From positions 1-64,000 of the forward strand of contig JAFGIY010000065.1 in the NCBI GenBank assembly GCA_016929335.1: a DNA stretch of 64,000 nucleotides, read 5' to 3'. The notes below the pieces were generated by a model, which was given only the letters and a program-made list of their open reading frames with translations, had not been told where the DNA came from and did not search any database. The stretch's first letter is position 1, and each line of letters opens with the position of its first letter. The position numbers and the translations under genes are program-made. Shown here piece by piece: positions 1,729 to 64,000 of the stretch. The stretch comes from Acidobacteriota bacterium. Its GTDB lineage: Bacteria > Acidobacteriota > UBA6911.

Positions 1729-3090
1729 ATGCCGCGTACTCGCGTTGTGATTATGGGCGCCGCAGGGAGGGATTTTCACAACTTCAACACGGTGTTTCGC
1801 GGAAGCAGGAGGCATCAGGTAGTAGCATTCACAGCGACGCAGATTCCCAACATTGATGGACGCAAGTACCCTGCAAGACTCGCCGGTGCACTTTATCCGA
1901 AGGGAATACCGATCGTTTCGGAACAGGAGCTTCCCCGCCTGATCGTCCGGCACAAGGTGCAGGAAGTTGTTTTTTCCTATTCGGATGTTTCGAACCAGTA
2001 TGTGATGGAACGCGCGGCGCTGGTAAATGCTTGCGGAGCGAGGTTTATCCTCTTGGGTGCGGATGAGACCATGCTTGCTGCGAAGGTGCCGGTAGTTGCC
2101 GTGGTAGCTGTCAGGACTGGTTCAGGAAAAAGCCAGACTTCGAGAAAGGTCTGTTCCTATCTCAGAGGCCTGGGATTGCGCGTCGTGGCGGTGCGTCACC
2201 CGATGCCGTATGGCAATTTGATGAAGCAGGTGGTTCAGCGTTACGCGACATTGGATGACCTCCGAAAGCATCAGTGCACGGTGGAGGAAATGGAGGAGTA
2301 TGAACCGCATATCGTAGAGGGGGGAGTGGTATATGCGGGAGTGGATTATGCCGCGATTCTGCGCCGGGCCGAACGCGAAGCCGACATAATCATCTGGGAT
2401 GGCGGAAACAACGATATTTCTTTCTACAAGCCGGATCTTACCATCACCGTTGTCGATCCGCACCGACCGGGCCATGAACGGACGTACTACCCGGGTGCGG
2501 CAAATGTACGGCTTGCGGATGTCATCATCATAAATAAAGTAGATAGCGCCTCGAAGGAAAACATCACATCGGTTCTCGCCGCTGTGACGGAGATGAATCC
2601 GAAAGCGCAGATTATTCGAACGGCTTCGCCGATTTCAGTCGATGATGCCGATGTCATAAAGGGAAAGAGCGTTCTGGTAGTTGAAGATGGGCCGACATTG
2701 ACACATGGAGGCATGCAGTTCGGCGCCGGCACTCTGGTGGCGAGGCTTTTCGGGGCGCGGGAAATAGTGGATCCTCGTCCCTACGCGGTTCATTCAATTG
2801 CCGAGACATTTCAAAAATATCCGGAGACCGGAATCCTTCTTCCTGCAATGGGATATGGCCCGGATCAGATTTGCGATCTGGAAACGACAATTAACCGTGT
2901 CCCCTGCGAAGCGGTTATTATTGGTACTCCGGTCGATCTGCGCAGAATCCTCAAGATTCAAAAACCGTCAACCCGCGTCCAGTACTCCCTGGAGGAACAG
3001 AGCAAGCCGGATCTTCAGACTATCCTTCGCGATTTCGTCCGTAGAGAAATATCCCGTCGCCGCAAAGGATTTCGGCGACTGGACTTATAA
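1729..3090 (+). CDS. predicted GTPase, cyclic 2,3-diphosphoglycerate synthetase-like (COG2403)
   Basis: I start this protein at ATG 1729, where it begins MPRTRVVIMGAAGRDFHNFN and is preceded by AGGAGAG. The frame stays open upstream into carbamate kinase, but those residues look non-coding. The 453-residue protein has a Rossmann-like N-terminal part (about 1-115), then a nucleotide-binding loop ending TGSGKSQTSRK near residue 130, and further P-loop NTPase features such as IIWDGGNND and IIINKVD (near 265, an NKxD-type guanine motif). It resembles the family named after archaeal cyclic 2,3-diphosphoglycerate synthetase. Bacterial members have no settled function, so a role with carbamate kinase is inferred from position only. 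It ends 8 bp from the convergent next gene. Confidence 0.75.
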   Translation: MPRTRVVIMGAAGRDFHNFNTVFRGSRRHQVVAFTATQIPNIDGRKYPARLAGALYPKGIPIVSEQELPRLIVRHKVQEVVFSYSDVSNQYVMERAALVNACGARFILLGADETMLAAKVPVVAVVAVRTGSGKSQTSRKVCSYLRGLGLRVVAVRHPMPYGNLMKQVVQRYATLDDLRKHQCTVEEMEEYEPHIVEGGVVYAGVDYAAILRRAEREADIIIWDGGNNDISFYKPDLTITVVDPHRPGHERTYYPGAANVRLADVIIINKVDSASKENITSVLAAVTEMNPKAQIIRTASPISVDDADVIKGKSVLVVEDGPTLTHGGMQFGAGTLVARLFGAREIVDPRPYAVHSIAETFQKYPETGILLPAMGYGPDQICDLETTINRVPCEAVIIGTPVDLRRILKIQKPSTRVQYSLEEQSKPDLQTILRDFVRREISRRRKGFRRLDL

Positions 3091-3098
3091 CTTCAATA

Positions 3099-3782
3099 CT
3101 ATTCTGAAATAGACCAGCCGCTTTCGGTAGCGCCGCAGTCGCTGCGAAGAAGCGTGGCGAAACGCTCGGCTGCAGCATTAATTTCTGCGAGAGCTTCGGA
3201 CGTTGGGGCGTAAATGACTGCTGCGATGTTCTGCGTGGACTCGCGGATCTTTGTGGCCATGGCATCTTTGACGGGATTCCCGCAGGGGAGCCATGCGGAT
3301 CCTTCTTTGCGGCAGACGCAGAGGAGGTCCTTGAGATCGATGCTTTGCCCGGAGAGGTTGAAAATATAGGATTCGCCTGACAGGCCCCTCCGGAGCAGAA
3401 GGGCGGTGCCGCAAATCTCCATGTCGAATATGCTGGCGGGATAGCCCCATTCCAGACTGATCACGTTGTTCACGTCCACAGGACCGTTGACGAGAGGGAA
3501 GTCCCCTGTTAATGCGGCTGCAAGCAGATATTCGCTGGACGGTTTGCTGCGCCCCGAGGGTTTGTAGGATCCGAAACGAAGCATATTTCGCACGGCAGCT
3601 TTTCGTTCTGGGCTCAAAAAGCATTCACCTGCCGCGCGGACGCGGACGAGAAGCTCAGAAAGATAAGCCGGCGTTGAAACTGATTTCGGACAGCCTGGCA
3701 GATTGAAGCCCCAAACCAGGGCGGCACGCATATTACGAGGCTCAAGCCCAGGATCGCAACAAAGGGAAGGGACCATGTTCAT
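3099..3782 (-). CDS. solo B3/4 (PheRS beta-type tRNA-binding) domain protein
   Basis: This 227-residue protein matches the stand-alone B3/4 domain family (COG3382) related to the editing region of phenylalanyl-tRNA synthetase beta. Typical elements are KPSSEYLLAAAL, VNGPVDVNNVISLEWGYPAS and FNLSGQSIDLKDLL. The most likely role is trans-editing or binding of a mischarged tRNA or free aminoacyl substrate, but this is not established for the family. GGAGG lies 4 nt before the chosen ATG at 3782, and a second ATG two codons later is also possible. The gene converges on the GTPase with only 8 bp between the stop codons. Confidence 0.75.
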   Translation of the reverse strand: MNMVPSLCCDPGLEPRNMRAALVWGFNLPGCPKSVSTPAYLSELLVRVRAAGECFLSPERKAAVRNMLRFGSYKPSGRSKPSSEYLLAAALTGDFPLVNGPVDVNNVISLEWGYPASIFDMEICGTALLLRRGLSGESYIFNLSGQSIDLKDLLCVCRKEGSAWLPCGNPVKDAMATKIRESTQNIAAVIYAPTSEALAEINAAAERFATLLRSDCGATESGWSISE

Positions 3783-4609
3783 CTTTCCTCCGAGCCGGAC
3801 GGTTTTTGCAGCTGTCCGGATGCTGTATGGTAATTGCTATTGAAAGAAAGGCAATAACAAATTGCCCCGCAAAATCAAATCATGGAAATCAAATCATGGA
3901 CACCCGTAAAAATCCCTCTCTTCAGAATAATTTCGCTTTTGGCAAACCTCCGGCTCTGCCGGAGAACTTGTAAGGTTTGACAATTCCAGGAATGAATGTA
4001 GTGTCGGCAGATAATCAGGATCAAGCCCCGAAAGGAGCGCAGCAGCGAAGCCCAGGGCTTGCGAGACTGTCCCAAAATTCGAATCAATTAGGCATGCCTT
4101 GAACCATGTGGGTCGCGGCTTCAGCCGCGACATGTTGGTGCAAACAGAAGAACGGGCATAAATATCTCTTACACATGGAAATCTTTGCTTATGCAGATTG
4201 CGTCATCGCCCCCACGGTTTTCAACCCCATTGTTGAGTTTCGAGACAGTCTCTTGCGCCCTGGGTTTTGCTGTCGGGCCCTTTCAAAGCCTGCCGCTTTG
4301 AGCGGCTCACAACCTAAAGCCTCCGGCTCTGCCGGAGTGATATTAATAGTAAGGGAAGAGTTGAGTTCTATATATAAAGGCAAATTGTGGAAGGAAGGTC
4401 CGATGATGCTACAAAAAGATGGGTGTCCACGATTTGCCTACGATTTGCATTAGGCAGGTGCTTGGTTTGATAAGCCTCGGGACACGCTATCGAACATGTA
4501 ATATAATTGAATACTATTAACGCTGAATCCGGCATCGAGAATGTAGATAGATGCTATACGATATTGAAGGTTCCTAACGGCCGGATAGGAGGATGGGTGC
4601 AAGATTAGT
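3783..4609. other. 827-bp intergenic region made of nested imperfect palindromes
   Basis: I see no convincing gene here. Short open frames exist but follow the repeats. Hairpins built on CTCCGGCTCTGCCGGAG lie at about 3948-3967 and again at about 4321-4339. Inside them, the sequence around 4020-4085 (AGCCCAGGGCTTGCGAGACTG) is roughly complementary to 4233-4270 (GACAGTCTCTTGCGCCCTGG), giving a long imperfect inverted repeat. Its centre holds the element at 4091-4163 shared with the imuB-dnaE2 spacer. The last 100 bp presumably carry the promoter of the transporter at 4610. Confidence 0.6.
4091..4163. repeat. dispersed element half-copy with GCGGCTTCAGCCGC palindrome
   Basis: This stretch is similar along about 73 bp to 41625-41697. 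Both share GGCATGC, TGAA, ATGTGGGT, GCGGCTTCAGCCGCGACA, TGCAAACAG and GGCATAA in the same order with similar spacing. In the second locus it forms the left half of a 111-bp inverted-repeat element. Confidence 0.7.
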
Positions 4610-53651: not shown

Positions 53652-55076
53652 ATGGAATCGGACTCGGGAAACGGAGTGAAGGCGCACGGATACAAGACGA
53701 TTGTTTATATCATTTGCATGGTTGCCGCCTTGGGCGGACTGCTGTTCGGCCTGGATCAGGGATTCATCGCCAATTCGCTTGATACTCTAACACAGCATTA
53801 TAAATTTGAGGTCCATGACAAGGAGAGCTACTCCGCGATCCTGGCTACGGGAGGAATTTTCGGCGCCCTGCTCTCGGGACTTTTCGCAAGGTTCCTTGGC
53901 CGGAAAAGAAGCCTGGTTCTCGCAGGCTTTATCTTTACAGCGGCCTCTGCACTTTCGGCGCTTCTCCCTCCTCTTCCCATGTTGTCGGTTTGCCGCTTCG
54001 CGCTCGGATTCGGAGTCGGAATTGCGTCCTTTATCGTTCCTCTCTACCTTTCTGAAACGGCTCCGGCGGCTATCCGCGGTTCCATGGGTACGCTCTTCCA
54101 GTTGATGATTACGATCGGCATCTTCGTGATTTCACTCAGCAACGTATTCATCGCGCGGGTTTTCATCGGTCCGACGACTTCTCTGCCTCTGATGTTCCTG
54201 ACGATTACGCTTTTTGCCGCGCTGATGTTCGCCGGCAGCTTCATCCTTCCTGAAAGCCCGAGGTGGTTGATGCTGAAAGGCAGAAAGGACCGGGCCGTTG
54301 CGGTTCTGCAAAGGACACTGGGTACTCAGGCGGAGATCGACAAGGAAATAGGAGAAATCGAGGAGGCGCTGCACGGTCCGCAGGGCGCCGGATTCGGAAT
54401 TGTCTTTCGCGGATATTTCTTCAAGGTCTTGCTGGTGGGCGTCTTACTTCAGATGTTTCAGCAACTGGTCGGCATAAACATGATGATCTACTATGCGCCG
54501 ACCATTTTCGGCTACGCCGGGATGACGGGCCTCATTGCCATGATGACCGTTCCCACCGTCAATATGCTCTTCACCTTTCCTGCGATCCACCTGGTTGAGA
54601 AATGGGGGCGCAAAAAGCTGCTCTATGTAGGCGCCATAGCCATGATCATCACGATGCTGGCTGCGGGATTCGCATTCCAATCCATCGGCAGCGTATCCGA
54701 TCCGTCACTCATTGGAGATGCTCCCAAGACGCTCCTGCTGATTTCGGTCATCATCTACATTTTCGGCTTTGCGGTTTCCTGGGGGCCGGTCGTTTGGCTG
54801 GTCTGCTCTGAAATTTTTCCACTCGAAGGGCGGGAAGTCGGCATGACGATTACGACCATGATCAACTGGACATTTGCGGGATTGGTGATGAATTACGCCC
54901 TTTCATTCATGAGCCGGTTCGGGAACGCTTCAATCTTCTATGTTTTTGCCGGTTTTTGCGTGATCGCGATCCTGTTTGTCGCCGCATTTGTCCCGGAAAC
55001 AAAGGGGATAACTCTCGAAAAGCTCGAATTTAATCTTAAAAAAGGGGTTCGGCTTCGGAATCTCGGGAATCGCTGA
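53652..55076 (+). CDS. MFS sugar porter (XylE/GalP-like)
   Basis: This 474-residue inner-membrane protein has 12 predicted TM helices. Sugar-porter signatures are FGLDQGFIANSLDTL (TM1 loop), GRKRSLVLAGF, FIVPLYLSETAPAAIRG (about 125-142), FQQLVGINMMIYYAPTIF (about 275) and VPETKGITLEKLE at the C-terminus. It should import a hexose or pentose with protons. AAAGGAGCC is upstream of the ATG. It lies 72 bp downstream of the metallopeptidase lipoprotein and may share its transcript. A terminator-like hairpin follows it. Confidence 0.92.
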   Translation: MESDSGNGVKAHGYKTIVYIICMVAALGGLLFGLDQGFIANSLDTLTQHYKFEVHDKESYSAILATGGIFGALLSGLFARFLGRKRSLVLAGFIFTAASALSALLPPLPMLSVCRFALGFGVGIASFIVPLYLSETAPAAIRGSMGTLFQLMITIGIFVISLSNVFIARVFIGPTTSLPLMFLTITLFAALMFAGSFILPESPRWLMLKGRKDRAVAVLQRTLGTQAEIDKEIGEIEEALHGPQGAGFGIVFRGYFFKVLLVGVLLQMFQQLVGINMMIYYAPTIFGYAGMTGLIAMMTVPTVNMLFTFPAIHLVEKWGRKKLLYVGAIAMIITMLAAGFAFQSIGSVSDPSLIGDAPKTLLLISVIIYIFGFAVSWGPVVWLVCSEIFPLEGREVGMTITTMINWTFAGLVMNYALSFMSRFGNASIFYVFAGFCVIAILFVAAFVPETKGITLEKLEFNLKKGVRLRNLGNR

Positions 55077-55086
55077 TAGGGTGATT

Positions 55087-55126
55087 TAATCGCGGATTTT
55101 TATGGATCCGCGGATAAATTTTTTCT
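55087..55126 (+). terminator. terminator-like hairpin between the sugar porter and SSS genes
   Basis: ATCGCGGAT pairs with ATCCGCGGAT around TTTTTATGG, and a T-rich run (55118-55124) follows, as in intrinsic terminators. The CCGCGGAT core also occurs in the inverted repeat at 59631-59702, so it may be a dispersed element serving as terminator. Confidence 0.6.
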
Positions 55127-55139
55127 GAGGAGTGAGGGA

Positions 55140-56801
55140 ATGACTACGCTTGGGCTGAATGCGATAGATTGGCTGATCATCGTTATTTATTTTGCCTTCA
55201 TCATCGGTCTGGGATTCTATCTAAAGCGCTTCACCAGAACTCAGGACGACTTCTTTCTGGCGGGAAGGAAAAACAGCGCATGGGTCGCCGGGCTGGCCTT
55301 CCTGTCTGCAAACCTCGGAGCTCTGGAGCTGCTCGGGATGGCGGGGAACACGTTCAAGTACGGGATGTACGTCGCGCATTTTTACTGGATTGGCGCAATC
55401 CCCGCGATGGTCTTCCTTGGCCTTTATATGATGCCTTTCTATTACAGCAGCCGCATTCACTCGGTCCCGGGCTATCTGCGATTGCGGTTCGATGAAAAAA
55501 CCCGCGTACTGAATGCCATTGCTTTTGCCGTAATGACTCTTCTGGTTTCCGGCATCAACCTGTATGCCATGGCGCTGGTATTGCACACATTCGTCGGATG
55601 GAACTGGGACGTCAGCATGTGGTTTTCGGCCATTGCAGTTGCGGCTTATATCACGATGAGCGGATTGTTGTCCGCCATCTTCACGGAAATCATACAATTC
55701 TTCCTGATCTGGTTTGGCCTTTTCCTGGTTGCAGTCCTGGGCATCGTGGAAATAGGCAGCATAGACCAGATTTTTGCCCGCATCCCTCCTTCCTTCGCTG
55801 CACTCTGGTCGACGGCAGGGGATGCCGGTCAGAATGGAATGGCTGTTACATGGGCGGGAATTGTACTTGGGCTGGGCTTCGTGCTTTCGTTCGGATATTG
55901 GACAACCGACTTTCTGGTTGTTCAGCGCGCCTTTTCGGCGCGCGACCTGCGCGCCGCCAGAATGACTCCCATCATTGCGTCGTTCTTTAAAATGGCCGTG
56001 CCGTTCCTGGTTATCATGACCGGCCTTGTAGCCCTGATTTTGGCTGGTGATCCAAAAAGCGGGTTCGCGCTTCTAAATGATGGAGGCCAGATCAACTACG
56101 ATTCGGCTCTCCCCCTGTTGATCCAACGCTACTATCCGGCAGGATTGATGGGGTTGGGAGTTACTGCGCTGCTGGCGGCGTTCATGGCCGGGCAGGCCGG
56201 AAACGTGAGCGCATTCAATACAGTGTGGACGTATGATATTTACCGCGCTTTGATCAATCCCAAGGCTTCCGATGAACTGCTGCTATGGATGGGGAGAGTG
56301 ACAACAATTGTCGGTATTTTCCTCAGCGTCGGGACCGCCTATTGGGCTAAAAGCTTCCCCAGCATCATGGATTACATGCAGGCGATCTTCTCCTGGGTGA
56401 ATGCACCGTTGTTTGCCACGATGCTGCTGGGAATGTTTGTCGTCTGGATCACGCCGAACGGCGCCTTCTGGGGATTGCTTGCCGGAATGGGATCCTCCTT
56501 TTTCCTGTTTCTTGCCGTTAAGTTTCAATGGATTGATCCTACGGCAATAACTCTTTCTTCAACCGCCAGTGATATGGCTGCAAATTTCTGGAGGGCATGG
56601 TGGGCCTGGCTGATTTGCTTCGCAATCACGATAGTCATCAGCCTTTTCACCCGAAAGAAGGATAAATCGGAGCTCGTGGGATTGGTAAAGGGACTCACTA
56701 TCGAAAAGGCGATGCAGGATATTCCGTTTGTTAAAACTCCCGAGTTCTATGGCATCCTCTCCATTGTCGTTTTTATCGTTCTTAACATTTATTTCTGGTA
56801 G
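55140..56801 (+). CDS. sodium:solute symporter (SSS family)
   Basis: The 553 residues are a typical 13-TM SSS protein. GLNAIDWLIIVIYFAFI is the first TM, FFLAGRKNSAWVAGLAFL the conserved first loop, and LGALELLGMAG and GMAVTWAGIVLGLGFVLSFG later segments. The sodium-site region SALPLLIQRYYPAGLMGLG is also recognisable. The substrate may be a sugar, amino acid or carboxylate and cannot be chosen. GGAG lies upstream. A 66-residue membrane protein gene follows after 9 bp. Confidence 0.9.
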   Translation: MTTLGLNAIDWLIIVIYFAFIIGLGFYLKRFTRTQDDFFLAGRKNSAWVAGLAFLSANLGALELLGMAGNTFKYGMYVAHFYWIGAIPAMVFLGLYMMPFYYSSRIHSVPGYLRLRFDEKTRVLNAIAFAVMTLLVSGINLYAMALVLHTFVGWNWDVSMWFSAIAVAAYITMSGLLSAIFTEIIQFFLIWFGLFLVAVLGIVEIGSIDQIFARIPPSFAALWSTAGDAGQNGMAVTWAGIVLGLGFVLSFGYWTTDFLVVQRAFSARDLRAARMTPIIASFFKMAVPFLVIMTGLVALILAGDPKSGFALLNDGGQINYDSALPLLIQRYYPAGLMGLGVTALLAAFMAGQAGNVSAFNTVWTYDIYRALINPKASDELLLWMGRVTTIVGIFLSVGTAYWAKSFPSIMDYMQAIFSWVNAPLFATMLLGMFVVWITPNGAFWGLLAGMGSSFFLFLAVKFQWIDPTAITLSSTASDMAANFWRAWWAWLICFAITIVISLFTRKKDKSELVGLVKGLTIEKAMQDIPFVKTPEFYGILSIVVFIVLNIYFW

Positions 56802-56810
56802 AGAGGCGTC

Positions 56811-57011
56811 ATGAAATCCATCTGGTACTTTGTCGGCTTGCTTCTAACGGTCATAGGCGCCATCATCACGGCTTCGGCGGTGTATTCATTGTTCAATCCG
56901 CCTGATAATCCCAAGATCCTGTCGCATTTGCACCCGGATCTCTGGTGGGGAATTGTCATGCTGGCATTCGGGATCTTTTTTGCAATACGGAACCGCCGTA
57001 GCATGGAGTAA
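56811..57011 (+). CDS. 66-residue membrane protein with two TM helices
   Basis: GAGAGG lies just before the ATG, 9 bp after the SSS stop. The protein has two predicted helices (about 4-26 and 44-60) and a basic tail (RNRRSME). It is too short for a known domain. The gene is probably real because of its ribosome-binding site, hydrophobicity and tight spacing. It may be an accessory subunit of the SSS symporter, like other small DUF485/DUF997-type partners. This is inference. Confidence 0.7.
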   Translation: MKSIWYFVGLLLTVIGAIITASAVYSLFNPPDNPKILSHLHPDLWWGIVMLAFGIFFAIRNRRSME

Positions 57012-57026
57012 TAGTGCCGTCCTGGG

Positions 57027-57096
57027 AGTCTTTGAGTCTTCGTGTCTTTGCGACTACAATGAAGCAACTCTGAGGCTCTAAGACTCTAAGAGATCC
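57027..57096. repeat. inverted repeat of GAGTCTTTGAGTCTTCGTG class
   Basis: GTCTTTGAGTCTTCG units (left) and CTCTGAGGCTCTAAGACTCT (right) are partly complementary, with a 7 to 8-bp period. It is related to the array at 19024-19106. It lies between the 66-residue protein and alanine dehydrogenase. Confidence 0.55.
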
Positions 57097-57120
57097 ATAT
57101 TGCGCAGAGGGAGGAGTCCC

Positions 57121-58254
57121 ATGATTGTCGGCATACCGAAGGAATGCTGGGGCGATGAACGCCGGGTGGCATTAACACCGGCCGGAGTCCATACGCTGTC
57201 GGCAGCAGGCCTCAATATCATTGTTCAATCGGATGCGGGGTTAGGCTGCGGCTTCTCGATGGATTCTTACAGGGAAGCGGGGGGCTCCATCGCCTTTTCT
57301 TCGGAAGAGGTTTTCGCCCGATCCGATCTTGTCGTGAAGGTCATGCCTCCAACCATTCAGGAGTGCGGATGGCTCGGCGAAGGGAAGTTTCTATTCAGTG
57401 TCGTACACCTGGGCTCCGCCAATCCGGAAATCCACCGCCTTCTGAGGCAGCAAAAAATAATTGCCGTAGGCTTGGAGATCATCGAGGATGACGATCACCT
57501 GCTGCCGGTTACCAAGGCCATGAGCGAAATAGCCGGCATGCTGGTGCCGCAGATTGCGGGGCGGTTCCTCGAAACGACACATGGAGGGCGAGGAGTGATG
57601 CTCGGCGGCGTCCCGGGAATTCCTGCTTCCCATGTGGTCATTGTCGGCGCCGGCACCGCCGGTGCTGCTGCCGCACATGTATTCAACGGGTTTGGCGCAA
57701 GCGTCACCCTGATGGACCATGATCTGAAACGTTTGCGAGCCGTAGACGCCTATCTGCCCAAAACGATCAACACGGCTTTGGCGAATCCATACAATATTGA
57801 GCGCTATGTGGTTTCAGCTGATGTTGTTTTGGGAGCTATTCTCGTGCATGGGCAACCCACTCCACACATCATTACGGAAGCCATGGTCCGAAAAATGCGG
57901 CCCGGCAGCGTTATCATCGACCTGTCGATCGACCAGGGAGGTTGTGTGGAAACAAGCCGGCCGACCACTCTGTCGGATCCCGTATTCAAGAAGCACGGCG
58001 TCATTCATTTCTGCGTCCCGAATGTCCCCTCCTCCGTCGCACGCACGGCGTCGCATGCGTTGAATAATGTGATTGTGCCTTTCGTGGAGGATATTGCGGA
58101 AAATGGGGAAGAATCCTTTCAAAACAACCCGGCTCTGCGCCGGGGAGTGTATCTCTTTTTCGGACACTGCACACATCAAGGATTGGCCGGATTGTTGGGC
58201 TGCGATTATGGCGACCTCGACCTGCTTTTAAAAACTTCAAGCCATGAGGATTGA
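57121..58254 (+). CDS. ald: alanine dehydrogenase
   Basis: The start at 57121 follows GGAGG. The frame opens 7 codons earlier. The 377 residues have the N-terminal motif MIVGIPKECWGDERRVALTP of alanine dehydrogenase/PNT. The substrate lysine lies in VVKVMPPTIQE (about 72), with the NAD-binding site VVIVGAGTAGAAAAHVF (about 178) and VIIDLSIDQGGCVETSRP (about 270). It interconverts alanine and pyruvate with NAD. The following CoA-transferase is overlapping or adjacent, so the two are co-transcribed. Together they suggest fermentation of an amino acid. Confidence 0.95.
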   Translation: MIVGIPKECWGDERRVALTPAGVHTLSAAGLNIIVQSDAGLGCGFSMDSYREAGGSIAFSSEEVFARSDLVVKVMPPTIQECGWLGEGKFLFSVVHLGSANPEIHRLLRQQKIIAVGLEIIEDDDHLLPVTKAMSEIAGMLVPQIAGRFLETTHGGRGVMLGGVPGIPASHVVIVGAGTAGAAAAHVFNGFGASVTLMDHDLKRLRAVDAYLPKTINTALANPYNIERYVVSADVVLGAILVHGQPTPHIITEAMVRKMRPGSVIIDLSIDQGGCVETSRPTTLSDPVFKKHGVIHFCVPNVPSSVARTASHALNNVIVPFVEDIAENGEESFQNNPALRRGVYLFFGHCTHQGLAGLLGCDYGDLDLLLKTSSHED

Positions 58255-58256
58255 GT

Positions 58257-59615
58257 ATGTCGACCTTGATGCCGGGATCAGGAGAAAAGGGGATTTCCAA
58301 TAGAACCGGCCGGTCCGCGCCATGGCTGGATAAATACCTGAGCAAACGCAGGACAGCGGTTGAGGCGGTCTCGGTGATCCGCAGCGGAGATTGTGTATAC
58401 ATATACCCCGGATGTGCGGAGCCGGAGCAACTGGTTCGAGCAATGGTGGATCGTGCGGAAGAACTCCGGAATGTGAAAGTCATTCACATATTGACCAAAG
58501 GCATCGCCGACTATGTTCATCCCGGGATGGGAAAAAGTTTCCGGCATATCGCTCTCTTCTCCGGCGCCAACGTTCGTGAAGCCATCAATGAAGGCCGCGC
58601 CGATTTCGTTCCTATCTTCCTCAGCGAAGTGGAATCGCTGTTCAGCAGCGGTGCCATGCCGATCGACGTCGCTCTGATTCATGTCTCGCCTCCGGATGAA
58701 CACGGCTTTTGCAGTTTCGGCGTGGGAGTGGATACCACCAAAACAGCAGCCGAATGTGCCCGCATCGTCATCGCCCAGGTGAATCCCAAGATGCCGCGTA
58801 CCCTTGGAGATTCCTTTATACATTTGAACAAGATTCATTGCGTGGTTGAAGTTTCGGGCGACCTGCTTGAATTTCCAATGGGGACGGTTTCGGATGTCGC
58901 GATGAAAATCGGCCGCCATATAGCCGATCTGATCGAGGACGAGTCAACTCTGCAGCTGGGCATCGGCGAAATTCCCGATGCGGTCCTGCATTACCTTACC
59001 GAAAAAAAGCACCTCGGCATCCATTCCGAAATGGTCAGCGATGGAGTCATTGATCTGATCGAGGGTGGAATTATCACCAATGAAAAGAAAACGCTGCATC
59101 CCGGAAAAGTGCTGGCCGGGTTTGTGCTCGGGACACAACGGCTGTTCGACTTTATCCACAATAATCCGGTTTTTGAGTTCCACCCCAGCCACTATACCAA
59201 CGATCCCTTCATTATCAGCCAAAACCATAAACAGGTCTCGCTTAATTCGGCAATTGAAGTGGATCTGACCGGGCAGATCTGCGCGGATTCCATCGGATAC
59301 AGCTTTTACAGCGGCATTGGAGGGCAGGTGGATTTCGTACGCGGCTCGGCCCGCAGCAAAGGGGGGAAGTCCATCATCGCCCTGCCTTCAACCGCGCGCA
59401 ACGATACGGCCAGCCGAATTGTATCTCACCTGAAAGAAGGGGCCGGTGTCGTGACCTCTCGAGGCGATGTGCACTACGTGGCCACGGAATACGGTGTGGC
59501 TTATCTGCACGGCAAAACAGTGCGGGAGCGCTGCCAATCGTTGATCAGGATTGCTCATCCTAAATTTCGGGAAGAACTGGAGAGAAGCGCCCGCGAGCGA
59601 AAGCTACATGAATAA
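58257..59615 (+). CDS. acetyl-CoA hydrolase/transferase family (4-hydroxybutyrate CoA-transferase-like)
   Basis: ATG 58257 has AGGA 7 nt upstream and is two codons past a TTG. The 452 residues are close to Cat-type and 4-hydroxybutyrate CoA-transferases. They contain SGANVREAINEGRADFVPIF (about 100), the catalytic-Glu region LGIHSEMVSDGVIDL (about 240), and GGQVDFVRGSARSKGGKSII and TPEYG-like VATEYGVAYLHGKTVRER near the C-terminus. It should transfer CoA between acetyl-CoA and a carboxylic acid. The stop codon lies inside the 18-bp repeat. It follows alanine dehydrogenase immediately. Confidence 0.87.
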   Translation: MSTLMPGSGEKGISNRTGRSAPWLDKYLSKRRTAVEAVSVIRSGDCVYIYPGCAEPEQLVRAMVDRAEELRNVKVIHILTKGIADYVHPGMGKSFRHIALFSGANVREAINEGRADFVPIFLSEVESLFSSGAMPIDVALIHVSPPDEHGFCSFGVGVDTTKTAAECARIVIAQVNPKMPRTLGDSFIHLNKIHCVVEVSGDLLEFPMGTVSDVAMKIGRHIADLIEDESTLQLGIGEIPDAVLHYLTEKKHLGIHSEMVSDGVIDLIEGGIITNEKKTLHPGKVLAGFVLGTQRLFDFIHNNPVFEFHPSHYTNDPFIISQNHKQVSLNSAIEVDLTGQICADSIGYSFYSGIGGQVDFVRGSARSKGGKSIIALPSTARNDTASRIVSHLKEGAGVVTSRGDVHYVATEYGVAYLHGKTVRERCQSLIRIAHPKFREELERSARERKLHE

Positions 59616-59624
59616 AGCGGGTTA
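59607..59624. repeat. 18-bp dispersed repeat, copy 2
   Basis: ATGAATAAAGCGGGTTAA is identical to 70-87. Its first TAA is the stop codon of the CoA-transferase. Confidence 0.75.
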
Positions 59625-59630
59625 AAATAA

Positions 59631-59702
59631 AACCGCGGATTTTCACGCATAAACAGGGCCGTAAAGGAATCCGATTCCCAGTTTATCCATGAAAATCCGC
59701 GG
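59631..59702. terminator. 23-bp-arm inverted repeat between convergent genes
   Basis: ACCGCGGATTTTCACGCATA (59631) faces GTTTATCCATGAAAATCCGC (59680). The stem is long with two or three mismatches and a 26-bp loop. Lying between the convergent CoA-transferase and TPR genes, it could act as a bidirectional terminator. It shares its core with the hairpin at 55087. Confidence 0.65.
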
Positions 59703-59727
59703 TCCGCAAACCTCTGTCGGCGGACGG

Positions 59728-60723
59728 TTACCTGAGGTCCTGCTGGGCGCGCTCGATTACACGCTCGATTCCGGCAAGCGAATTCCGGTTGCTCGATCTA
59801 TAGAGCTGATCCAGATATTTCTTCGCCGAGGATGATGTAGATCCTTTGATTACGTAGGCTTTGGCGAAATTCAGCATGGCCGGCTGCAGCTTGTTCTGCT
59901 GCCAGTAGCACAGGCCCAGATGATAGTAAGCCGAGTCGTTTCTTTTGAAATATTTGACTGAGTTTTCAAAGTTTCTTACGGCTTCAGCGTAGCTCTGGTT
60001 CTGATAGGCATTCGCTCCCAAGACTGCATAGGCGGTGGCATAGCCTGCATCCGTCGTGTTCTTCCAGTCTTTATCGCTGACTCCCTCGGGCTTTTTTGCC
60101 TTCGGCAGAGCGCTAAGGGTTTGCTTCGCGTATTTCACGGCTTGGGCTGTGTTCTGGCTTGCCATATACCTTCTGGTCATGTCGATCAGAATTTCGATAT
60201 TATTGGGATCCTGTGCCAGAACCTTCTCTCTCCACTGGTTATATTTCGCGTCGTTGCCTATTTTCTGGTAGGCCTGCGCGATTGCCAATGCAAGTGCCGC
60301 AGTTGGTTTCTGTGCATATGCTTTCTCGCCGTATGTGGCAAAGCCCCTCATGTTGTTTGTCTCAGCGTAAGCTACAACCAGAGCTTTCTCTGTGAAATCA
60401 TCGCCGGGAGCAACATCCAGAAACCTGTCTCCGAGCGAGATAATCTCATTCCATCGCTTTGCATCTCTAAACTCAATAATGATCCTCTGATATTCAGCCA
60501 TTACATGCTCTTTGTAAGAGCTTTTGGGTTTCTCTTTGAGAAAGGCGAAAATCAAGTCGATCTTCTTGCCGACTTCTTTCTCATTCTGGATGGCTGTTAA
60601 TGCGTTGTACTCCTCTTCTGTCGGTTCCTGTGCCCTTATGATGCTCGGGCTGAGAACCAAAGCTCCAATAAACAGAATGCTAAGGAGTGATTTGGATAAA
60701 TAAGAAACCGAGTGGGAAGCCAT
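59728..60723 (-). CDS. secreted TPR protein (paralogue of the gene at 17740)
   Basis: The 331-residue protein has a signal peptide (about 10-32, cleavage near IRAQE). TPR-like helices follow through to YYHLGLCYWQQNKLQPAMLNF (about 255-280), with a C-terminal segment KKYLDQLYRSSNRNSLAGIE. It resembles the 17740 protein both in this C-terminal part and in overall layout, but lacks about 40 residues. It is probably periplasmic with no known function. It is preceded by GGAG and by a good promoter. Confidence 0.77.
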   Translation of the reverse strand: MASHSVSYLSKSLLSILFIGALVLSPSIIRAQEPTEEEYNALTAIQNEKEVGKKIDLIFAFLKEKPKSSYKEHVMAEYQRIIIEFRDAKRWNEIISLGDRFLDVAPGDDFTEKALVVAYAETNNMRGFATYGEKAYAQKPTAALALAIAQAYQKIGNDAKYNQWREKVLAQDPNNIEILIDMTRRYMASQNTAQAVKYAKQTLSALPKAKKPEGVSDKDWKNTTDAGYATAYAVLGANAYQNQSYAEAVRNFENSVKYFKRNDSAYYHLGLCYWQQNKLQPAMLNFAKAYVIKGSTSSSAKKYLDQLYRSSNRNSLAGIERVIERAQQDLR

Positions 60724-60788
60724 GTCATGATCTCCTTGATGTGAGCGGAATCGCCCTATTTCATCTTCCGCTCTGTAATTCTGGCCCT

Positions 60789-60817
60789 TTTATATCAAAA
60801 GCATTGTTGAAGTACAA
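60789..60817 (-). promoter_or_regulatory. sigma-70-type promoter of the TPR gene
   Basis: On the minus strand, TTGTAC (60817-60812) and TATAAA (60794-60789) are separated by exactly 17 bp. This gives a leader of about 60 nt before the ATG at 60723. Confidence 0.55.
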
Positions 60818-60863
60818 TAAATGAAATTGCCGGAAATATTGTGGATTGTACCCTCCTTTCGCT

Positions 60864-61838
60864 ATGCTTCAACACATGATAATTAAAGAGATACCATTGG
60901 AAGAGATTAGTTTCGAAAACGATGATTTTCGAATCAGCGAAGATCTGGATTCCGCTTCTATCCGCGACTCAATCCGTCATGTTGGGCAGTTGAGTCCCGT
61001 TATTCTCCTGGATCAAAAGCCCAAATTGGCTGTTGTTTGTGGGTTCCGTCGCGTTTGTGCATTTAAACAGCTCGGCATCCCACGGTTATATGCCCGAATT
61101 CTCTCAGCTGAGGATTATGATGCAGAAAAGGCTTTTATGCTCTCGCTATGGGATAACCTGTCGCACCGGCAGCTGAATCCGCTTGAAAAGGCGCGGGTGC
61201 TTTTAAAACTCCGGCGTATGTGCGGGATTCCGGACGAGCGTCTTATAGGCGAATATTTGCCCGTTCTGGGATTGGCGCCCAACGCAAAGGTACTGGATAG
61301 CTATCTTCTGCTTAGCAGCATTCACCCGGGCCTTCGGCGGACTCTAATCGATGACAGACTGACTCTGACCAGCCTGGAATTCCTTTCTGAGTTGCCGGCT
61401 GACATCCAGGGATGCATGGCTTCTCTAATGGACAAGATCCGATTAAGCGCCAGTTCGCAAAAGAAGCTGCTGAGTCTGTTGGACGAATTGGCTGCCAGAA
61501 CCGGAAATTCTTTTGATGCGCCCCTTAAGGAGTCACAAATATCGAGGATCCTGGAAGATGCGGGATTGTCTTCTTTTCAGAAAGGAGAGAAAGTGTATGA
61601 TTTCCTTTATCGCCTTGTATATCCAAGACTTTCGCATACGGCCGACCTCTTTCTGGAGCGAAAGAAGCAGTTGAGAATACCGGGCGTGATCCAGATTAGG
61701 GCGCACCCGTTTTTTGAGGATCCCGGCCTGCGAGTCGAATTCGAGGCCTCCGATATCCATCGCTTTCGCCAACTGACTGCGGCTCTTCAGGATGCTGCGC
61801 TGTCTCCCGAGGCGGAAGAATTGTTCAATCTTGATTAG
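60864..61838 (+). CDS. ParB-like N-terminal domain protein
   Basis: I take ATG 60864. A TTG six codons upstream and an ATG four codons downstream are alternatives, and none has a clear Shine-Dalgarno sequence. The 324 residues start with a ParB/Srx-type domain. LDSASIRDSIRHVGQLSPVI (about 19-38) is box I, and VVCGFRRVCAFKQLG (about 48) is a degenerate box II in which the conserved GERR reads GFRR. An alpha-helical middle with a helix-turn-helix-like segment follows. There is no ParA. It is followed 16 bp later by the radical SAM gene, so the two form an operon. A DNA-binding regulatory or nuclease role is inferred. Confidence 0.75.
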   Translation: MLQHMIIKEIPLEEISFENDDFRISEDLDSASIRDSIRHVGQLSPVILLDQKPKLAVVCGFRRVCAFKQLGIPRLYARILSAEDYDAEKAFMLSLWDNLSHRQLNPLEKARVLLKLRRMCGIPDERLIGEYLPVLGLAPNAKVLDSYLLLSSIHPGLRRTLIDDRLTLTSLEFLSELPADIQGCMASLMDKIRLSASSQKKLLSLLDELAARTGNSFDAPLKESQISRILEDAGLSSFQKGEKVYDFLYRLVYPRLSHTADLFLERKKQLRIPGVIQIRAHPFFEDPGLRVEFEASDIHRFRQLTAALQDAALSPEAEELFNLD

Positions 61839-61854
61839 TATATGGCGTGCTTCA

Positions 61855-62922
61855 ATGATTCCTTACCGTCCGAAACTTGTTCTCGTTCACCATCAATCCC
61901 TGCAGGACCGGTGTACGCAGGAGATGCTGGAAAGGCTGCAGGATATTGAAATCAGAACAATTTGCGATAAAAACATCGACTGCTTTGGCAATGATGCTCT
62001 GGTCCTGATGCGTTATCCGGGTAAATTCCTGCGCATTTGCCAGGGATCCGGAGCTGAGATTTGCTGCAATATTTTGATCGTAAGCTACGCGTGGAACTGT
62101 CACCTGGAGTGCAGCTATTGCGTGCTGCAATCCTATTTGAGCAGCGGTGCACTCGTTGTCTGTACGAATTTTGAGGATCTGTTGAGGGACATAGCGGATA
62201 CGCTTAAGCAGTCGCCGGACCGCACATTCAGAATCGGAACCGGTGAGCTGGCCGATTCTCTCGCGCTGGATCACATAACCTGCTTTTCGCAGAAGATAGT
62301 GCCTTTCTTTGCCTCCCTCCCAAATGGGATTCTCGAGCTTAAGACAAAGTCCGATCAGGTCTCGAATTTGAGAAATTTGGATCATGGCGGACATACGATC
62401 GTATCCTGGTCGATGAATTCCCGGGAAATCTGCTGTACAGAGGAATCGAAGGCTGCCTCTTTCGAAGAACGGTTGGATGCGGCGCGCCGTTGCCAGGAAT
62501 GGGGCTATCGAATTGGATTTCACTTCGATCCCATCATTTATTATGAAGGATGGGAGACGGGGTACCGGGATGCTATAAGGGATATCTTCAATGTGATCGA
62601 TCCGGATAATGTGGCATGGATCAGCCTGGGAGCCCTTCGTTTTACGCCTCATTTGCGCGAAATGGCACGCAAGCGCTTCCCGGAATCCAGGGTGCCTTGT
62701 GGCGAGTTCGTTCCCGGGCATCATGGGAAGCTGCGCTATTTCCGTCCAATCCGCGAAGAGATGTACCGCAAGATGAGGGCCTGGATCCGTTCGGCGGCGC
62801 CCCATGTGTTTGTTTATCTGTGCATGGAAAGCCGTGTAGTCTGGGAGAACAGCTTCGGCGAGGCGCCCCAAAATGCATCCCAGCTTGCCCAAAAAATGAA
62901 TGACCTGTTCCGCAGCCGTTAA
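61855..62922 (+). CDS. spore photoproduct lyase-like radical SAM protein, catalytic Cys absent
   Basis: The start at 61855 gives MIPYRPKLVLVHHQSL. The 355 residues are close to SplB in length. The 4Fe-4S motif is CHLECSYC (C82, C86, C89), followed by LQSYLSSGALVVCTNFED. In true SPL a cysteine follows in the AACTSD segment. Here the aligned segment reads RIGTGELADSLALDH with no cysteine (roughly Glu 131 in its place). Later parts (SWSMNSREICC, EERLDAARRCQEWGYRIGFH and DPIIYYEGWETGYRDAI) are conserved with SPL. It may repair or modify another DNA or RNA lesion. It pairs with the upstream ParB-like gene. Confidence 0.82.
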   Translation: MIPYRPKLVLVHHQSLQDRCTQEMLERLQDIEIRTICDKNIDCFGNDALVLMRYPGKFLRICQGSGAEICCNILIVSYAWNCHLECSYCVLQSYLSSGALVVCTNFEDLLRDIADTLKQSPDRTFRIGTGELADSLALDHITCFSQKIVPFFASLPNGILELKTKSDQVSNLRNLDHGGHTIVSWSMNSREICCTEESKAASFEERLDAARRCQEWGYRIGFHFDPIIYYEGWETGYRDAIRDIFNVIDPDNVAWISLGALRFTPHLREMARKRFPESRVPCGEFVPGHHGKLRYFRPIREEMYRKMRAWIRSAAPHVFVYLCMESRVVWENSFGEAPQNASQLAQKMNDLFRSR

Positions 62923-62931
62923 CCGCACCTC

Positions 62932-62963
62932 TAACCCGATTTATTCATAAATAAAGCGGGTTA
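62932..62963. repeat. hairpin containing copy 3 of the 18-bp repeat
   Basis: TAACCCGATTTATT pairs with AATAAAGCGGGTTA with one mismatch around a short CATA loop. It sits 10 bp past the SPL-like stop and includes the third copy of the repeat at 62947-62964, which differs by one base. It might end the ParB/SPL transcript, but there is no U-tract. Confidence 0.7.
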
Positions 62964-63101
62964 AGCGCCATAAACTTTAGAAAAGGCATAATTTCTAGAG
63001 AATATTTGTCCCCCCTGCGTCGATAAGAGTTGCTGAGACATTTAAAGGCATCTCTCTATCAGAAGAGAGAATTGGAATTAGGGGCTTGGACGCTGATCGT
63101 T

Positions 63102-64000
63102 ATGTCCACCGTTAGAAGTTTACAAGAGGATCCGCAGCAGCTTTCTGTCGGTCCGGTTTTTCACCCTGCGCGCATTCTGATTGTTGATGATGAAGCAATT
63201 GTGAGAGATGTCCTCGCGCGCAAGCTCGTAAGCCTCGGCCATGCATGCGAAAGCTGTGAAAACGGCATGGAGGCGCTCGAGCTTTTGGCGTCCGGGAAAT
63301 TTGACCTCGTTCTGGCAGATGTGCTGATATCTGAAATACAGGGGACAACTCTCCTCAAAGAGGCTTTGAGAATCAGCCCGGACATTGCAGTAATTCTGGT
63401 AACATCCGTCGTTGACATTGGGGTGGCGGTGGATTCCCTGAAGGACGGCGCCTACGACTTTATAACCAAGCCATTCAGCCTGGAGGAGGTTTCCATCAGT
63501 GTTTCGCGGGCACTTGAGAAGCGCCGGTTGCTGCTGGAGAACCAGAATTATCAGCGTACGCTGGTGGAAAGAGTCGCCAGCCGCACGGGTCAGTTAAAAG
63601 AGGCGCTGGGAGTACTCGAGCATACCTATCATTCCACCCTTGTTGCCCTAAGCAAAGCATTGGACAGCCGCGATGCCGATTCCGATGGCCATTCGCTCCG
63701 AGTCACGGTTTATGCCACGAAGCTGGCCCGCCAGCTTGGTATGAGCGAAGCACAAACAAAAACGATTGAGCGGGGAGTATTGCTGCATGATATCGGGAAA
63801 ATCGGAATTCCGGATGCATTGTTGAGGAAACGGGAGAAACTGAATCCGAGTGAATGGCAGTTGATGCAGAGGCATCCTGAAATCGGCTACAGGATACTTT
63901 CAAGCATTAAATTTTTAAAAGGTGCGGCGCAGTTGGTGCTGCATCATCATGAGCAATTTGACGGAAATGGCTATCCACAAAAATTGAAGGGCTCCGAAAT
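63102..64000 (+). CDS. response regulator with HD-GYP domain (partial, runs off window)
   Basis: From ATG 63102 the frame stays open to the window end, giving at least 299 codons. The N-terminal receiver (about 24-145) has acidic residues D29/D30, phospho-acceptor D73 in LVLADVLIS, and the late Lys of FITKPF. A short coiled linker leads to an HD-GYP domain with HDIGKIGIP (about 235) and HHHEQFDGNGYP (about 285). Such proteins degrade cyclic di-GMP, counterpart to the GGDEF enzyme at 23495. The C-terminus is not seen, and the sensor kinase is not in the window. Confidence 0.9.
   Translation, partial: MSTVRSLQEDPQQLSVGPVFHPARILIVDDEAIVRDVLARKLVSLGHACESCENGMEALELLASGKFDLVLADVLISEIQGTTLLKEALRISPDIAVILVTSVVDIGVAVDSLKDGAYDFITKPFSLEEVSISVSRALEKRRLLLENQNYQRTLVERVASRTGQLKEALGVLEHTYHSTLVALSKALDSRDADSDGHSLRVTVYATKLARQLGMSEAQTKTIERGVLLHDIGKIGIPDALLRKREKLNPSEWQLMQRHPEIGYRILSSIKFLKGAAQLVLHHHEQFDGNGYPQKLKGSE

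Follow-up and report, generated by a model that had tools for sequence, protein, structure and literature searches.

An SPL-fold radical SAM enzyme, its ParB/Noc-like partner and a family-2 glycosyltransferase: a candidate three-protein module in Acidobacteriota and other bacteria

Why should an Acidobacteriota genome without a detectable Spo0A encode a protein of the spore photoproduct lyase (SPL) family, and why directly behind a ParB-like gene? The locus in question lies in a window of 64,000 nt (positions 1 to 64,000 of contig JAFGIY010000065.1, forward strand, assembly GCA_016929335.1), in which a ParB/Noc-like protein of 320 aa (60876..61838, + strand) is followed, after a gap of 16 bp (61839..61854, +), by an SPL-fold radical S-adenosylmethionine (SAM) protein of 355 aa (61855..62922, +). 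A preliminary description of this DNA had reported the two genes and proposed that they form a DNA-lesion or nucleotide-modification system; we re-found both open reading frames (ORFs), their strand and the gap. At roughly even odds (probability about 0.5), the two proteins belong to a module of usually three proteins acting in one pathway, namely the SPL-fold enzyme, the ParB/Noc-like partner and one specific family-2 glycosyltransferase (GT2), the last being a component new in this analysis. That the proteins of the module work together is well supported. The evidence comprises co-occurrence across genomes, a gene order of GT2, partner and SPL where the genes are linked, the SPL fold of the predicted model, and conserved Cys and Glu residues.

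The pair itself is widely conserved. The SPL-like protein is more than a chance presence, being encoded by 50 of 149 relatives (a sample in which near kin weigh heavily), and tblastn found the partner in 27 of the 30 SPL-like loci returned; of the remaining three, one has the partner beside a masked run in a longer stretch, one has none in 14 kb and the third ends ~1.2 kb upstream. The partner is also present in 6 of 17 phylum-level regions. At least 560 stretches of the named collection encode an SPL-like relative, with titles including Acidobacteria, Deltaproteobacteria, KSB1, Zixibacteria, Binatia, Omnitrophota, Neomarinimicrobiota, SAR324 and others. Among the best 80 of these, to which all our counts of named loci refer, the SPL-like gene is preceded within 1 kb, on the same strand, by a relative of the partner in 64 (raised from 63 because L130 had been missed through an upstream-extended SPL frame), and three of the other 16 loci start no further than about 130 bases from the SPL-like gene. 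In relatives the two genes overlap by 4 bp or are separated by 2 to 280 bp. The neighbourhood search suggested in the preliminary description thus came out in favour of a conserved pair.

The third component emerged from clustering of the neighbouring genes, which placed a GT2 at 29 of the 102 loci, 27 of them among the 80 named ones. The order GT2, partner, SPL is seen in 24 of these 27 named loci, and in L117, L139 and L149 the GT2 gene stands directly before the SPL-like gene. These GT2s constitute one subfamily (47-55% identity to the first alignment row); the L099 protein scores 130.9 bits against PF00535 (cut-off 23.3), and no NCBIfam equivalog cut-off was reached in the 25 of 32 families listed, the best score being 124.7 bits for TuaG (cut-off 400). 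Within the 149 relatives, where GT2 calls were made across a score gap from 272 to 210 bits, the subfamily occurs in 30 genomes, all of which encode the SPL-like protein, and in 0 of the 99 genomes that lack it; no SPL or partner gene lies beside the GT2 in the 20 separate GT2 regions read from this set. The same association is seen in the phylum of Desulfacinum infernum, which we take to be Desulfobacterota: of 247 genomes, 131 have both SPL and GT2, 11 SPL only, 8 GT2 only and 97 neither. For the partner, counted as present at 96 bits or more, the corresponding figures are 128 with both partner and SPL, 14 with SPL only, 6 with the partner only and 99 with neither, and the two genes are sometimes located on different contigs (e.g. 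G194 and G231). Ten genomes with SPL and GT2 gave no partner match. Five of them were fetched; four, chosen for a gap between adjacent GT2 and SPL genes, match the C-terminal domain of the partner within that gap, and the fifth (G419) carries a nucleosidase-like gene between the two. Outside the loci labelled Acidobacteria, one GT2 copy is present in 28 of 36 SPL-encoding genomes behind named loci (36 of about 59 given). All three genes are carried by a cultured strain, Desulfacinum infernum DSM 9756 (L126, G171).

Several other genes recur around the module. A protein of ~110-130 aa is encoded directly before the GT2 in L092, L107, L110, L127 and L132 and contains a Rho_N domain in L127, the only locus in which it was scanned; a purC-like gene, identified by eye as one for SAICAR synthetase, precedes the ParB-like partner in L126, L128, L130, L144 and L148. 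The separate GT2 of Acidobacteriota is often found near genes resembling rluD, lgt and an EF-G-like GTPase (by eye; 9, 8 and 7 of 20 regions, respectively), the loci being L160, L162, L164, L166, L167, L172, L173 and L174.

What kind of enzyme is the SPL-like protein? It is a member of the SPL fold family, as it passes the gathering score of PF20903 (102.4 bits, cut-off 27) and its predicted model contains the complete SPL fold. Judged by its sequence, it would not count as an SPL in the enzymatic sense: it misses the TIGR04070 equivalog cut-off (113.6 bits versus 400) and departs from SPL at the B. subtilis/Geobacillus donor position and in the tyrosine relay. In a MAFFT alignment of 93 rows, on which all residue counts of this family are based, the three cysteines of the radical SAM motif CxxxCxxC (C82-C89, CHLECSYC; 62098..62121, +) are each found in 93 of 93 rows, and the position of the hydrogen-donating cysteine (C141 in Bacillus subtilis, C140 in Geobacillus) is taken by E131 of a GTGE motif (62245..62247, +; Glu in 92 rows, Gln in one). 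In this column B. velezensis SplB has Cys, and the three solved chains shown have Ala or Ser mutants. By this alignment, Glu at the B. subtilis donor position is a family trait; the sequences noted earlier, CHLECSYC and RIGTGELADSLALDH in place of the donor cysteine stretch, were both re-found. The first relay tyrosine (B. subtilis Y97, Geobacillus Y96) has its equivalent in Y88 in all 93 rows. At the second (Y99 and Y98, respectively) Tyr occurs in only 25 rows and other residues in 68, Val in the window protein, so the two-tyrosine relay of SPL is incomplete. The lesion-flipping hairpin is six residues shorter than in SPL, and the pocket lysine, K165, is conserved in 93 of 93 rows. These differences, the conserved cysteines C62, C71 and C323 described below and a host genome without a Spo0A match set the protein apart from SplB. 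In that genome the whole sequence was searched for Spo0A_C, the sole sporulation gene searched for, without a match (a B. subtilis control was positive), and to this extent the earlier remark on missing sporulation genes is borne out.

Could another cysteine act as donor? C62 (62038..62040, +; Cys in 92 of 93 rows) is a candidate alternative hydrogen donor or metal ligand; the pair C70-C71 (62062..62067, +) is Cys in 84 and 93 rows, respectively, and C323, part of a conserved CME motif near the C terminus (62821..62823, +), in all 93. None of the four is present in B. velezensis SplB. In the SPL of Clostridium acetobutylicum the donor is C74 on the opposite side of the pocket (PMC5368176). Its equivalent would be Geobacillus S76, and C62, C70 and C71 all lie near this residue; the likeness to the C. 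acetobutylicum enzyme is limited by the unsettled column, and that enzyme differs in belonging to a spore former. MAFFT places C62 on S76, as does an alignment with 4rh0, but the latter is driven there by the engineered Cys of 4rh0; hhalign puts C62 one residue off, and the alignment with 4fhg, which has the native Ser, shows a gap opposite C62. The earlier claim that the catalytic cysteine is lacking therefore stands for the B. subtilis/Geobacillus position, whereas the conserved C62, C71 or C323 could serve in its place. The preliminary description had named an alignment with another cysteine at the donor position as evidence against its reading, and C62 may be such a case, the alignments being divided. 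Alternatively, the four cysteines may ligate an auxiliary iron-sulfur cluster or zinc instead of donating hydrogen, which would fit any function of the enzyme. We regard this as possible although clearly below even odds: it agrees with the high conservation of these residues and their absence from SplB, but C70 is replaced in 9 of the 93 rows.

For the ParB/Noc-like partner encoded in the window, Pfam gave no match, PF02195 (ParB_N) included, and its TIGR00180 match (NCBIfam) is below cut-off; the relative in L127 reaches 36.3 bits with PF02195 (cut-off 26.3). In the model (pLDDT, predicted local distance difference test, 94.5) the N-terminal part, a ParB_N/sulfiredoxin-fold domain, resembles KorB, ParB, Noc, PadC, sulfiredoxin and free serine kinase, and the middle resembles ParB-type DNA-binding domains, so that a ParB N fold and a helix-turn-helix (HTH)-like domain are both predicted; a family-specific C-terminal domain follows. 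The GFRR box (residues 56-59; 61041..61052, +), which we take to be the equivalent of the nucleotide-binding GxRR box of ParB, had been called degenerate. This does not hold, since the GxRR pattern is retained, with G56 and R59 in 49 of 49 rows, Phe in 37 and the middle Arg in 35. The E/DN box is kept as well (an acidic residue at 93 in 46 of 49 rows, N94 in 36), and few positions of the HTH region reach 80% conservation. As 13 named loci match only in the C-terminal part (model positions from 143 on; L086 was left out as masked), the C-terminal domain is the most widely kept part of the protein. Unlike ParB, Noc, KorB and PadC, with which it shares the ParB_N fold, both boxes and the HTH-like domain, the partner has its own C-terminal domain, and no ParA was found among the eight window proteins scanned (53652-63998), in agreement with the preliminary description. 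Because a strong ParB_N match is present on another contig of the same genome, the window protein is probably not the chromosomal ParB. Homologues favour ATG 60876 as its start; an in-frame ATG is also present at 60864.

Taken together, these data hint that the outcome is a glycosylated product and not the repair of UV damage, and the best reading we infer is that a nucleoside-type or small-molecule substrate undergoes radical modification and is then glycosylated. The enzyme would use a 5'-deoxyadenosyl radical on such a substrate, bound at the site where SPL holds the thymine dimer. Ordinary radical SAM enzymes have a GGE-like SAM-binding motif, which Glu131 would restore; the product radical may be quenched by C62 or a Cys close to it, and the lack of conservation at the second relay tyrosine makes consumption of SAM probable. 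The partner would dock the enzyme or deliver the substrate, the GT2 would add a sugar to the product, and the window's own family may have lost the GT2 or may use another glycosyltransferase.

A further indication comes from nucleosidase-like proteins, which in three lineages occupy the partner's place or are fused there, and would suggest adenosyl transfer followed by adenine removal, or else disposal of 5'-deoxyadenosine. In L045, L046 and L197 such a gene separates the GT2 from a variant SPL that lacks both GTGE and C62, as seen in the alignment for L045 and L046 and by eye for L197. PF01048 scores 20.9 bits in L046, below the cut-off of 25.1, and gives no match in L045; the futalosine hydrolase model matches weakly (24.4 bits in L046, 25 in L197, 12.8 in L045; cut-off 124.7). 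A nucleoside phosphorylase subfamily (PF01048 100.5 bits in L032) is encoded divergently to the pair in L032, L035, L039 and L118, and occurs in 86 of 142 genomes with SPL and 16 of 105 without it in the 247-genome set. Hopanoid synthesis offers a parallel (PMC12583986): after addition of the 5'-deoxyadenosyl radical by HpnH, adenine is removed by HpnG, a putative phosphorylase, and HpnI attaches a sugar. That a radical SAM enzyme, a nucleoside phosphorylase and a glycosyltransferase occur together in both cases would suggest a similar, unproven logic, adenosyl transfer here being read from the gene set. The module-linked phosphorylase is no HpnG by score (32 bits versus 187.1; HpnH and HpnI were not searched for). 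A fusion is seen in a 623-aa ORF of L181 (Fusobacterium vincentii record; 3001-3843 and upstream), in which a nucleosidase-like N-terminal part, recognised by eye and by alignment, is joined to an SPL-like radical SAM domain.

A number of points weigh against the three-protein pathway. None of the 15 genomes of the window's own family, 12 of which encode SPL, has the GT2 (best score 166.6 bits with all candidates scored), and it was not found in eight other relatives with SPL. In the large searches scoring was confined to the 8-16 best first-look candidates of each genome, therefore single absences are soft; likewise, Fisher and permutation values ignore phylogeny and therefore overstate significance. 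The ParB part of the partner is not detected in the 13 named loci mentioned above, the nucleosidase tail is weakly like the partner domain (hhalign probability 5.5%, E 0.007), and the phosphorylase link is partial. Finally, the alignments disagree on which cysteine, if any, corresponds to the donor.

Among the other explanations of the whole module, nucleic-acid hypermodification fares best, although we consider it rather unlikely. Here the SPL-like enzyme would oxidise or alkylate a base in DNA, tRNA or rRNA, the partner would target it by means of nucleotide binding and an HTH, and the GT2 would glycosylate the base, an oxygen-independent analogue of base J. The SPL fold, the invariant pocket lysine K165, the predicted ParB N and HTH-like folds of the partner, the co-occurring GT2 and the position of some loci beside housekeeping genes resembling secA, murI and clpX (by eye) all agree with it; the 13 loci without a detectable ParB and HTH part, the poorly conserved HTH region, the shortened hairpin and the nucleosidase-like gene at the partner's place in some lineages do not. 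SPL-like lesion reversal, in which C62 or a neighbouring Cys would donate hydrogen instead of C141 and the ParB-like protein would locate the lesion, appears improbable. C62, C70 and C71 near the C74 position, the invariant Y88 and the full SPL fold would suit such a reaction, but the variable second relay tyrosine, the shorter hairpin and the co-inherited GT2 weaken repair of DNA lesions; of the two functions first proposed, nucleotide modification is still a possible one. That the ParB-like gene is an unrelated neighbour held by synteny alone, as its absence within 1 kb in 16 of 80 named loci might suggest, is very improbable given that partner and SPL co-occur in the 247 genomes even from different contigs.

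Upstream and divergent from the pair lies a TPR protein gene (59728..60723, - strand; Pfam scan and neighbour clustering), linked by synteny only. Of 102 loci, 17 have a homologue of it close to the pair, and those of the 17 that are named all carry Acidobacteria or Acidobacteriota in their titles; the downstream neighbour is a response regulator with an HD domain (Pfam). Four proteins compared with the anti-phage defence proteins of PADLOC-DB gave 0 matches at E 0.01. Elsewhere, a second SPL-like paralogue (NLGELGDPLA or NLGELCDPLA, 207-233 bits) is present in L190, L192, L193 and L195 (G343, G149, G400 and G279) and adjoins TcmP in both scanned loci (L190 183.6 and L192 210.6 bits; TIGR04474 cut-off 53). 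This is possibly another SPL-like pair, similar in having an SPL-like protein beside a partner gene and different in that the partner is TcmP, not a ParB-like protein or GT2. On a Roseomonas plasmid (L183:1674-3795) a tandem pair of SPL-family genes directly follows repA-repB.

Returning to the three-protein module, it is conceivable, with odds somewhat short of even, that it represents a novel radical-SAM glycosylation pathway spread over several phyla and hundreds of genomes. There, an SPL-fold enzyme diverted from DNA repair would produce a modified nucleoside, a modified nucleic-acid base or an adenosylated small molecule for a dedicated GT2 to glycosylate, and a ParB/Noc-like protein would have been recruited as partner. 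The SPL-like enzyme is encoded in 142 of the 247 genomes of the Desulfacinum phylum and in the 50 Acidobacteriota relatives out of 149; among named families, a DNA-repair lyase is the closest to it. If it indeed starts the synthesis of a glycosylated product, the repair-lyase label would mislead, and these large, mostly uncultured groups would possess a so far unknown modification of a metabolite or of nucleic acid.
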